A stretch of DNA of 64,000 bases. Source: Gammaproteobacteria bacterium. GTDB taxonomy: Bacteria > Pseudomonadota > Gammaproteobacteria > S012-40. The notes under the pieces were generated by a model that saw nothing but the letters and a program-made list of their open reading frames with translations, was not told where the DNA came from and ran no database searches. Positions 19,391 to 22,704 of the stretch are shown in pieces; position 1 is the first letter of the stretch, and each line of letters starts with the position of its first letter. The position numbers and the translations under genes are program-made. The stretch spans positions 372,001 through 436,000 of the forward strand of contig JAOUMY010000001.1 in NCBI GenBank assembly GCA_029881255.1, in the 5' to 3' direction.

Positions 19391-19420
19391 AAGGCGGGCT
19401 CTTAAGAGCCCGCCTTTTTT
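19391..19420 (+). terminator. Strong intrinsic terminator of the binding-protein gene
   Basis: A fully self-complementary 22-base stem (GGCGGGCTCTT/AAGAGCCCGCC, 19393-19414) preceded by A and followed by six T. It closes the monocistronic unit. Confidence 0.92.
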
Positions 19421-19488: not shown

Positions 19489-20295
19489 ATGATCAGTTCA
19501 ATAAAAAACCTAACCGAATCAAGAATTTTTCAGAATTTCATCGTTGTAGTAATACTATTTAACGCTGCCATTATCGGTATGGAAACCTATCCGGGAGTAC
19601 GCCAACAATGGGGGATGGTATTACACTGGTCAGATGCACTATGTCTTAGCATCTTTGTCATAGAGATTATTCTCAAGCTACTTGCATGCGGTTCACGTCC
19701 TCAGGACTATTTTCGAAATGGCTGGAATCTCTTTGACTTCATAATCGTCGCCGCCGCCTTTGTACCGGGCCTGCAAAGCCAGACGACCATACTTCGTCTT
19801 ATTCGTTTATTACGTGTCCTTCGACTACTCTCAGCAATGCCGAGTTTACAAATCATGGTAACCGCCTTGTTGCATAGCATTCCCCGCATTGCGCAAATGG
19901 CCCTGTTATCCAGTCTTTTGTTTTATGTCTATGCAGTAGTAGGAAACACCTTGTTTGCCGAGCATGATCCTAAACATTGGGGCACGCTACACATATCGCT
20001 ATTAAGCCTGTTCAGAACTCTAACGCTTGAGGACTGGACCGACCTGATGTATACAGGAATGGAACTATACTCCTGGTCCTGGATCTATTTTGTCAGCTTT
20101 GTATTGCTGGCAACATTCGTTATATTCAACATGCTCATCGGCATAATTCTAGGCAGCATGGAAGAAGCGCGTGCCGTAGTTGAAGCGGAAAATAAGACAG
20201 AAGAAGAAAGAAACATCGACAATAAGCTCAACGCCATACGCGAAGCCCTTGATGGCATTGAGGATCATCTGAAAAAAATAGAAAACCGAAAGTGA
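19489..20295 (+). CDS. Voltage-gated ion channel of the bacterial NaChBac type
   Basis: A single-repeat (six-helix) tetrameric cation channel of 268 residues, start at the ATG 19489 because an upstream in-frame start (19429) would put charged residues before S1. S4 carries four arginines three residues apart (R103, R106, R109, R112 in LRLIRLLRVLRLL). The pore helix and filter read TLEDWTD (169-175), then S6 (FVLLATFVIFNMLIGIIL) and a C-terminal coiled coil. NaChBac and NavAb sodium channels have TLESW; engineered calcium-selective NavAb variants have aspartates at the fourth and seventh filter positions, as here. The stop overlaps the start of the next gene (GTGA). Confidence 0.93.
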   Translation: MISSIKNLTESRIFQNFIVVVILFNAAIIGMETYPGVRQQWGMVLHWSDALCLSIFVIEIILKLLACGSRPQDYFRNGWNLFDFIIVAAAFVPGLQSQTTILRLIRLLRVLRLLSAMPSLQIMVTALLHSIPRIAQMALLSSLLFYVYAVVGNTLFAEHDPKHWGTLHISLLSLFRTLTLEDWTDLMYTGMELYSWSWIYFVSFVLLATFVIFNMLIGIILGSMEEARAVVEAENKTEEERNIDNKLNAIREALDGIEDHLKKIENRK

Positions 20296-21152
20296 ATGCC
20301 AAACCCCACTTCTATCTTTCGAAGCTCTTCAAGATAATAACGCTTGTTGCCTTGTGCACCAATTCTGCCCTAGCGTATGCCGAAACCAAAAAGCATATCC
20401 AACACATAGAGCCTCTTAGCTGGAAGGATATGGAAAACGTGTTCTTTTTGGAAAGCCGCGGCAACATGATAGACATAATACGCAACCTACCAAAAGACTT
20501 TCCTAAAATACGAAATGCCAACAAGCGAAAAAAACTCTTCATACTTGGCCTGCTACCAATTGTCGAACAGGAAAATCTTCGAATCCGCGAGCAGCGTAAT
20601 TTGATCAAACTTTTTCTCAAAGACGATCACTGGCCACAAGTCGGCGACAGAAAACAATGGCTAAACCATGCAGTTAAACGTTACCGAATAAACACCGCTA
20701 TTCCAGCAAAAATCAAACAACAGCTACTCCTAAAAGTAGATGAAATTCCAGCACCGCTTGTCATTGCACAAGCAGCCTTAGAAAGCGGCTGGGGCACATC
20801 TCGCTTCGCGCTGGAAGGTAATAGCTTGTTTGGCCAATGGACGTTTGCTGAATCAACGGGTTTAGTTCCAGAAGAGCGAGAAGACGGCGAAACTCATCGC
20901 GTCAAGGCATTTAACAACATTAGCGAATCTGTGCGTGCGTATATGCAGAATATTAACACCCATCATGCATATAGGGAGCTACGCAATATGCGCCAGAATA
21001 TGCGTAAACAATTTTCTCCACTGGATTCATACAAACTTGCGTCAGGACTTAATCGCTATTCCCAAATGGGGGACCGTTACGTACGTGAGTTGCGCAGCAT
21101 CATGAATAGCGATGTTATGATGCGCATCCTTACTCAGGATACTGAGGATTGA
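20292..21152 (+). CDS. Bax-like glucosaminidase-domain protein
   Basis: A secreted or membrane-anchored putative peptidoglycan hydrolase, 286 residues, start GTG at 20292 overlapping the channel stop by four bases. An N-terminal signal (IITLVALCTNSALAYA) is followed by a helical region and, from about residue 145, the glucosaminidase-type domain: PAPLVIAQAALESGWGTSRFALEGNSLFGQWTF with the catalytic Glu in ALESGWG, and RVKAFNNISESVRAYMQNINTH. This is the pattern of Bax of E. coli. Its 3' end overlaps the converging deacetylase gene by 23 bases. The coupling to an ion channel is unusual. Confidence 0.9.
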   Translation: MNAKPHFYLSKLFKIITLVALCTNSALAYAETKKHIQHIEPLSWKDMENVFFLESRGNMIDIIRNLPKDFPKIRNANKRKKLFILGLLPIVEQENLRIREQRNLIKLFLKDDHWPQVGDRKQWLNHAVKRYRINTAIPAKIKQQLLLKVDEIPAPLVIAQAALESGWGTSRFALEGNSLFGQWTFAESTGLVPEEREDGETHRVKAFNNISESVRAYMQNINTHHAYRELRNMRQNMRKQFSPLDSYKLASGLNRYSQMGDRYVRELRSIMNSDVMMRILTQDTED

Positions 21153-22299: not shown

Positions 22300-22704
22300 G
22301 TGTTCACTGTAGAAACTGTTGTCGTTAGCGCACTACTATATGTATTGATGTTAGTTGCGTTTCGCTTTCCTCATATAAGACTATTCCACATCGGCACAAT
22401 GTCTAGCGTAATGTTGTTTGACTTACTCATGCCTTTTTATCTCTACTTAAACCGTGACTGGAAGGAACGTCTCATCGACGGAGGGGAGATATTTTCGTTT
22501 CTGATCTGGATGCATTTTGGCGTAGTGCTAACCTTGTATGCCTTATACATCATGCAGATCATAGAAGGGCGCAAGATCCTGCGCGGAAAAAACAAGGTAC
22601 GAGAGTCACACCGCAATCTCGGCAAAGGAATATTATTGGTAAGGTTTATAGTCGTATTCAGTGGCGCCTTACTTTATGAACCGGAACAAACACCACAGGT
22701 ATAA
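22300..22704 (+). CDS. Small multi-helix membrane protein, possibly DUF420-like
   Basis: A 134-residue membrane protein with about four hydrophobic segments (VVSALLYVLMLVAF, SSVMLFDLLMPFYLYL, IWMHFGVVLTLYALYIMQI, GILLVRFIVVFSGALL). The start is GTG at 22300 with GAGG 7 bases upstream. Histidines near helix ends and the closing pattern HRNLGKGILLVRFIVVFSGALLY recall DUF420/CtaM-like proteins, but this resemblance is loose. It starts close to the deacetylase gene, divergently, and ends in a bidirectional terminator shared with prkB. Function unknown. Confidence 0.65.
   Translation: MFTVETVVVSALLYVLMLVAFRFPHIRLFHIGTMSSVMLFDLLMPFYLYLNRDWKERLIDGGEIFSFLIWMHFGVVLTLYALYIMQIIEGRKILRGKNKVRESHRNLGKGILLVRFIVVFSGALLYEPEQTPQV

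Follow-up and report, generated by a model that had tools for sequence, protein, structure and literature searches.

The selectivity filter TLEDWTD is native to NavPp of Plesiocystis pacifica, which was reported to be Na+-selective (PCa/PNa = 0.308 +/- 0.028) and whose current drops with rising Ca2+, that is, shows Ca2+ block (Shimomura, eLife 2020, PMC7041947). In the same report, CavMr of Meiothermus ruber, whose native filter is TLEGWVD, had a PCa/PNa of 218, with Gly at filter position 4 as the key to Ca2+ selectivity; when CavMr carried TLEDWTD, PCa/PNa fell to 13.8 and discrimination against K+ and Cs+ was lost (PK/PNa = 0.95, PCs/PNa = 0.57). It also relates that TLEDWSD in NavAb and TLEDWAD in NaChBac give Ca2+-selective channels, whereas neither filter made NavPp Ca2+-selective, that no current was seen on expressing the Halomonas elongata and Teredinibacter turnerae channels, whose filters resemble that of NavPp, and that TLEDWTD fits the reconstructed ancestral bacterial filter (PMC7041947). 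A single Ser-to-Asp replacement at position 4 of NavAb was reported to raise Ca2+ permeability about 100-fold (PMC10120453), and according to a later paper charged filter residues alone do not predict selectivity (PMC8002053). Ca2+ block has been engineered into NavAb via filter position 2, in mutants that the authors state to differ from NavPp (PMC10349818); since position 2 is Leu both in NavPp and in the channel described below, the results of that study that bear on position 2 do not explain the NavPp block. To judge from these measurements in other channels, a TLEDWTD filter may, according to the body that carries it, confer Na+ selectivity together with Ca2+ block or discriminate poorly between ions.

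We analysed a stretch of 64,000 nucleotides of a Gammaproteobacteria bacterium genome (hereafter the window; contig JAOUMY010000001.1, positions 372,001 to 436,000), in which a single open frame running from ATG 19489 to the stop at 20295 encodes a channel with this filter (Table 1). A sequence-only reading had claimed a bacterial voltage-gated channel here, and the 268-aa frame is indeed intact and matches Pfam Ion_trans (E = 9.2e-49). TTG 19429 is a possible alternative start, but several orthologous frames begin at the ATG that corresponds to 19489. The S4 arginines, S6 and coiled-coil tail listed by that reading were recovered by sequence, heptad pattern and AlphaFold2 model, and its filter letters, with Asp at positions 4 and 7, were found as read at residues 179-185.

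Table 1. Features of the channel gene, its protein and its neighbours (positions in the window)
Feature	Position	Strand	Basis
Stem-loop and T-run between upstream solute-binding-protein gene and channel	19393..19420	+	Read from sequence; perfect, GC-rich stem
Voltage-gated cation channel gene (BacNav/AnclNav kind), 268 aa	19489..20295	+	ORF, Pfam, alignment, AlphaFold2 model
S4 voltage sensor arginines R103, R106, R109, R112	19795..19824	+	Sequence and alignments
Arg176, pore helix P1, 3 residues N-terminal of filter; aligns with NavAb Gln172	20014..20016	+	Alignment
Selectivity filter TLEDWTD, residues 179-185	20023..20043	+	Sequence; same in 5 orthologs found
Tyr188, pore helix P2; aligns with NavAb Arg185 across a one-residue gap	20050..20052	+	Alignment
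S6 helix and cytoplasmic extension, residues 197-235	20077..20193	+	AlphaFold2 model
C-terminal coiled-coil heptads, residues 243-264	20215..20280	+	Heptad pattern and AlphaFold2 model
Bax-like glucosaminidase, start overlapping channel stop by 4 bases; probable operon partner	20292..21152	+	ORF and Pfam
134-aa hydrophobic protein, no family; near channel on its strand in 5/5 ortholog loci	22300..22704	+	

All four S4 arginines were invariant in an alignment of 13 sequences (A1) and R112 nearly so in an alignment of 43 (A2); the S2 and S3 landmarks F56/E59 and D83 were invariant in both, and T1, E3 and W5 of the filter were invariant or nearly invariant among the 43. The tail (I243-L247-I250-L254-I257-L261-I264) has the 4-3 heptad spacing of a clean coiled-coil pattern. 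An AlphaFold2 model built with the 43 sequences (mean pLDDT 91.6, pTM 0.72) consists of the voltage-sensor helices, P1 (167-178), P2 (183-193), a long S6 and a C-terminal helix (238-267), and a Foldseek search with this model ranked NavAb, CavAb and NavMs near the top, CavAb (5klb) coming second (E = 4.7e-13). With its Ion_trans domain, NavAb-like S1-S6 fold, S4 arginine repeat, T-L-E-x-W P-loop and C-terminal coiled coil, the protein has the marks of the BacNav superfamily, and sequence and model alike give good support to its prediction as a voltage-gated cation channel. Five orthologs were found among the matches listed (L004-L007 and L033; 63-71% identical), all with TLEDWTD, and 4 of the 12 other searched genomes of the host's family (G001, G005, G006 and G007) have an ortholog.

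The channel was placed in a tree of 74 rows (IQ-TREE quick search, SH-aLRT support only) chosen from a set of 148 distinct sequences. This set consists of frames with [T/S][L/F]E.W.. and an S4-like repeat, with duplicates and re-fetched loci excluded, so that it does not extend to distant homologs (e.g. L151 and L152) or to channels in which position 3 is other than Glu. The channel and its five orthologs formed a clade of 6 (SH-aLRT 100), separate from the canonical clade with TLESWSM, TFESWSM and TLESWAS filters (11 NavAb-like and 2 Bacillus-type rows, SH-aLRT 95) and from a clade of channels with a long P2-S6 loop (SH-aLRT 96), outside which the long-loop L089 also fell; CavMr is absent from this tree. 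A short-loop clade with mostly TLEDWTD filters, mainly from Pseudomonadota and Nitrospirota, had SH-aLRT 100, and a TFEDWTD clade had SH-aLRT 98, one TFEDWTD row (L182) standing instead in the short-loop, mostly-TLEDWTD clade. Branches between these five supported groups were weak.

The extra acidic filter residues, as in NavPp, and the placement in the tree apart from the NavAb-like and Bacillus clades assign the channel to the short-loop AnclNav-like (ancestor-like BacNav) channels. It has TLEDW and not the TLESW of canonical BacNavs, Asp and not the Gly of the CavMr kind at filter position 4, and Arg176/Tyr188 at the positions aligned with the Gln172/Arg185 scaffold that carries the filter aspartates in a CavAb-like pore. 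It represents, in intact form, a known type of bacterial channel that has been little studied, and its TLEDWTD filter was already in print in 2020.

For comparison with NavPp we used the myxobacterial channel L134, which by its numbering (filter Thr182, gate Thr232) we take to be NavPp or a near ortholog, T232 being the number used for the NavPp mutant T232A (PMC7041947). The channel of this locus shares with NavPp the TLEDWTD filter and the one-domain, six-helix voltage-gated plan, and with L134 also the P1 Arg and P2 Tyr. The two proteins are identical at 113/258 residues overall (44%), 46/95 in the pore (131-225) and 16/25 around the filter (168-192), whereas the P2-S6 loop of L134 is about 20 residues longer and contains cysteines. 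The filter and gate threonines are 50 residues apart in L134 and 30 in our channel, whose Thr209 aligns with T220 of NaChBac and T232 of NavPp. In CavMr, 57 residues separate filter Thr183 from Gly240 by the published numbering, implying a longer P2-S6 loop; this channel is likewise a one-domain AnclNav with acidic filter positions 3 and 7, and differs in the Gly at position 4 of TLEGWVD. Canonical BacNavs (NavAb, NavMs, NaChBac) have the same fold, S4 and coiled coil, and differ in their TLESWSM or TLESWAS filter, their Gln/Arg scaffold, their separate supported clade and one residue more in the P2 region of the aligned rows. The same genome encodes such a NavAb-like paralog with TLESWSM (L002, G000:C7:148684-149412), to which identity was 92/263 overall, 34/95 in the pore and 9/25 around the filter; for the Bacillus-type L078 the values were 101/260, 45/95 and 10/25. 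CavAb and CaChBac share Asp at filter positions 4 and 7 with our channel, but they are engineered from NavAb and NaChBac and not native, and the NavAb scaffold has P1 Gln and P2 Arg. The likeness to CavAb drawn by the sequence-only reading thus holds at positions 4 and 7 and fails at position 3, where CavAb also has Glu changed to Asp and Glu is kept here.

That reading had also allowed that comparable filters may exist elsewhere and proposed a search for them, and the filter turned out to be common. A degenerate DNA pattern for T[L/F]EDWTD was found in 53 of the 299 sampled genomes of the phylum, in 52 of them inside a channel match, and in 1/299 with the reversed control (55 EDWTD matches in total, of which two, that in G475 and one of two in G352, lay outside the listed channel matches). 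Since the five orthologs keep TLEDWTD, the pattern far exceeds its reversed control and the codons are spelled in many synonymous ways, the match is not due to chance; together with the 2020 report of NavPp in eLife, these counts rule out TLEDWTD as a rare or unprecedented filter. A looser pattern for the canonical TLESWSM type was found in 30/299 genomes, 29 of them inside a channel match (reversed control 1); this pattern is loose at two codons, and 29 of the 30 genomes spell TLESWSM in a channel match, G295 having TLETWSM elsewhere. Counted per genus the order is reversed (19/154 for EDWTD, 27/154 for the TLESWSM type), so the excess by genome partly reflects repeatedly sampled families. 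Both filter types occurred in channel matches of the same genome in 3/299 cases (G000, G208 and G332). Among the matches listed, 112 channel frames carried TLEDWTD (50), TFEDWTD (32), TLESWSM (25), TLESWAS (2), and TLEGWVE, TLEDWTN and TFESWSM (one each), counts in which our channel appears twice (L001 and L003) and which lean toward the EDWTD filter because one of the two contig scan seeds was EDWTD[V/L]M. TLEDWTD accounted for 78 of the 148 distinct sequences; the P2-S6 loop was short in 44 of these and long in 34.

Regarding residues outside the filter, the column that varied most closely with filter position 4 was residue 176 in P1. In the 148-row set, P1 was Arg in 113/113 sequences with Asp at position 4 and was not Arg in 34/35 others. 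With 13 hand-picked rows added (161 rows), Asp-4 went with P1 Arg and P2 Tyr in 115/117 and Ser-4 with Gln and Arg in 31/33, and mixed scaffolds were seen in 9 Gly-4, 1 Ala-4 and 1 Asn-4 rows. The added rows comprised 7 from plasmids or phages (8 of 40 listed matches were fetched, L192 giving no passing frame), 4 viral-contig loci and 2 Gly-4 channels, the latter being the 2 of 21 pattern matches that fell on known channel matches. The exceptions were L171 (Ser-4) and L188 (Asn-4) with P1 Arg, L201 (Gly-4) with P1 Lys, L184 (Ser-4) with P1 Gln and P2 Tyr kept, and two Asp-4 rows with P1 Gln, L190 (TGDDWGN) and L194 (TFDDWSG), which have a Gln/Arg or Gln/Lys scaffold and Asp also at position 3. 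When columns 170-192 were left out of tree building, position 4 offered 8 independent contrasts, in which P1 Arg changed the same way in 5, the opposite way in 0 and showed no difference in 3 (p = 0.0625). In a control over 172 variable columns (position 4 included), residue 176 tied with filter position 6 (184), ranked below only position 4 itself and position 7 (185, where canonical rows are gap-shifted), and was the best scored column outside the filter. With 5 informative contrasts and a p value that falls short of the usual bar of significance, the coupling of P1 Arg with Asp-4 is suggestive, and we do not claim a salt bridge between the two as proven.

In NavAb crystal structures, Gln172 is bonded to the main chain of Glu177 behind the filter and is fixed by Arg185 (PMC12919392), and these reported bonds, Gln172-Glu177 and Gln172-Arg185, place the P1 and P2 positions in touch with the filter. 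Tyr188 is likely the counterpart of Arg185, judging from the P2 alignment with its one-residue gap. For snail Cav3, it was reported that a turret lysine neutralising the beacon Asp shifts preference from Ca2+ to Na+ (PMC9694082); in domain II of Cav3, which bears the beacon Asp, the aligned P1 position is Gln in our alignments, which would fit an Asp that favours Ca2+ when left uncancelled. No account of the P1 Arg in AnclNavs was found in our literature search, and the main text of the eLife 2020 paper does not contain 'arginine' or 'Arg', but its Figure 1c alignment covers the region. We tentatively propose, as an idea that may well prove wrong, that ion preference in one-domain Nav/Cav channels is set by a triad of filter position 4, the P1 residue and the P2 residue: Arg/Tyr would cancel the beacon Asp in native Asp-4 channels and leave them Na+-preferring with Ca2+ block, and Ser-4 channels carry Gln/Arg. 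If true, a P1/P2 swap (R176Q + Y188R, or the reverse in an engineered Ca2+ channel) would switch selectivity with the filter untouched. Both L194 (Microvirga sp. VF16 plasmid) and L190 (Nonomuraea gerenzanensis) combine a Gln-P1 scaffold with Asp at filter positions 3 and 4; they resemble CavAb more closely than our channel does and by that logic may be the better candidates for native Ca2+ channels.

Our best explanation, with a probability of roughly 0.55, is a voltage-gated channel that prefers Na+, is blocked by Ca2+ and leaks Ca2+ to a minor extent. The protein would be a homotetrameric voltage-gated cation channel of the AnclNav kind, presumably held together by the coiled coil as in the rest of the family, in which depolarisation would move the four S4 segments and open the S6 gate. 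Its filter would pass mainly Na+, and extracellular Ca2+ would enter the acidic mouth, block the Na+ current and leak through slightly, as in NavPp. The reason may be that the P1 Arg holds or neutralises the extra acidic charge of the filter, the Arg/Tyr scaffold replacing Gln/Arg in native Asp-4 channels, in contrast to CavAb, in which the same aspartates were placed on a Gln/Arg scaffold. The NavPp-like outcome is favoured here by a body with Arg176 and Tyr188, by the Na+ selectivity of NavPp with the identical filter together with the failure of its TLEDWSD and TLEDWAD variants to become Ca2+-selective, by filter surroundings that are nearer to L134 than to the paralog L002, and by the exclusion of our channel from the canonical clade. 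Against it stand the PCa/PNa of 13.8 given by TLEDWTD on the CavMr body, whole-pore identity to a Bacillus-type channel as near as that to L134, and the silence of the Halomonas elongata and Teredinibacter turnerae channels; nor is NavPp a close stand-in, since our channel is without the long P2-S6 loop and the order of the clades is weakly supported.

The CavMr result raises the alternative that the channel selects poorly among cations and passes Na+, K+ and Ca2+, as did the CavMr body with TLEDWTD, and the backbone here is indeed unlike that of the NavPp candidate and, by loop length, unlike that of CavMr. We consider this unlikely, because the filter is the same in all five orthologs and the commonest in the collected sets, which suggests a tuned property, and because native NavPp is selective.

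Native Ca2+ selectivity of the CavAb/CaChBac type, in which three acidic rings would chelate Ca2+ and exclude Na+, is what the sequence-only reading implied by analogy. The engineered NavAb and NaChBac filters and the 100-fold effect of Asp at position 4 of NavAb speak for it, as do the P2-S6 loop, short like that of NavAb, and a pore about equally near to the Bacillus-type channel and to L134. That chemical argument is valid on the NavAb body but fails for NavPp, the one studied native channel with TLEDWTD, which is Na+-selective and Ca2+-blocked; the same filter cut the Ca2+ selectivity of CavMr, and Arg176/Tyr188 is the Asp-4 type of scaffold, not the Gln/Arg of NavAb-like and Bacillus-type rows. 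Ca2+ selectivity drawn from the filter letters alone was rejected on the NavPp measurement, and as a property of this channel it seems improbable. What stands of the proposed functional Ca2+-permeable channel is the voltage-gated cation channel predicted by sequence and model, with a weak Ca2+ permeability that would be compatible with the ratio measured for NavPp. That the protein has no voltage-gated channel function in the cell, or that the gene is decaying, as the two silent channels with similar filters might suggest, is very improbable given the intact frame, the conserved S2, S3, S4 and filter landmarks and five orthologs conserved at 63-71%.

Upstream, the stem-loop that separates the channel from the preceding gene looks like an intrinsic terminator, so that the channel probably has its own promoter; a pattern scan for promoter-like sites on the + strand between stem-loop and channel found none, and the stem-loop itself is absent from the listing of that scan. 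In 3 of the 5 ortholog loci the next gene downstream of the channel is the Bax-like one; the spacing varies with the locus and the start chosen, from a 4-base overlap to a gap of about 55 bases (L113, ATG overlapping the channel stop by 4; L115, first ATG at +6; L116, TTG at +13 and first ATG at +55), and L114 and L033 are without Bax. In L114 the gene of the 134-aa protein, whose best Pfam match is DUF4079 (E = 0.37), overlaps the channel end by 4 bases in place of Bax. The channel is probably the first gene of a small operon that also includes the gene of the 134-aa protein and, in the majority of these genomes, Bax; at the host locus and in L113 and L116, Bax is separated from the 134-aa gene by a polysaccharide-deacetylase gene of opposite strand, which disfavours one transcript there. 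A tie of the locus to cell-wall or osmotic stress is speculation. Genome content was uninformative about Na+/Ca2+ physiology, since the families of the Nqr2/RnfD homolog (1 match) and of Na_Ca_ex (4 matches, two frames) also matched the E. coli control. A mobile-element origin was set aside: 1 phage record (23% identity), 39 plasmid records (all <60%) and 4 IMG/VR contigs were met, and nothing in them points to mobility of the channel gene.

Several other channels were met among the relatives. Gly at filter position 4 occurred in L041, L144 and L217 (TLEGWVE), L186 (TLEGWAE), L140 (TLEGWVD), L150 (TLEGWNS) and L201 (TLEGWPD); L041 and L144 stand in the short-loop Asp-4 group of the tree and L140 and L150 in the long-loop group, and the filter of L140, a channel from the class of a Polyangiaceae genome, is exactly that of CavMr. 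L171 (TLESWTS, P1 Arg) and L184 (TFESWAT, P1 Gln) are Ser-4 channels within Asp-4 tree groups. Contigs filed as viral in IMG/VR encode BacNav-like channels (L185-L188) with TFEDWTD (twice), TLEGWAE and TFDNWSE, and two Streptomyces plasmid channels (L189 and L195, 38-39% identical to ours) have lost the filter Trp (TLDGIGD and TLEGLGD). Genomes of family f128 (e.g. G222 and G456) have up to four channel-like matches each, some of them weak, and multiple copies may be usual in this lineage; three f128 channels group with those of Mariprofundus and other Zetaproteobacteria in the 74-row tree.

The value of this analysis is a corrected inference and a lead to the P1/P2 scaffold. The error corrected is a natural one, as a filter that resembles an engineered Ca2+ filter need not make a Ca2+ channel. 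The family amounts to a natural experiment, in which one seven-residue filter has different selectivity on different scaffolds, and the switch between Arg/Tyr and Gln/Arg is a specific, testable pair of mutations, and the short-looped channel described here can be compared more cleanly with NavAb and NaChBac than can the long-loop L134 or CavMr.
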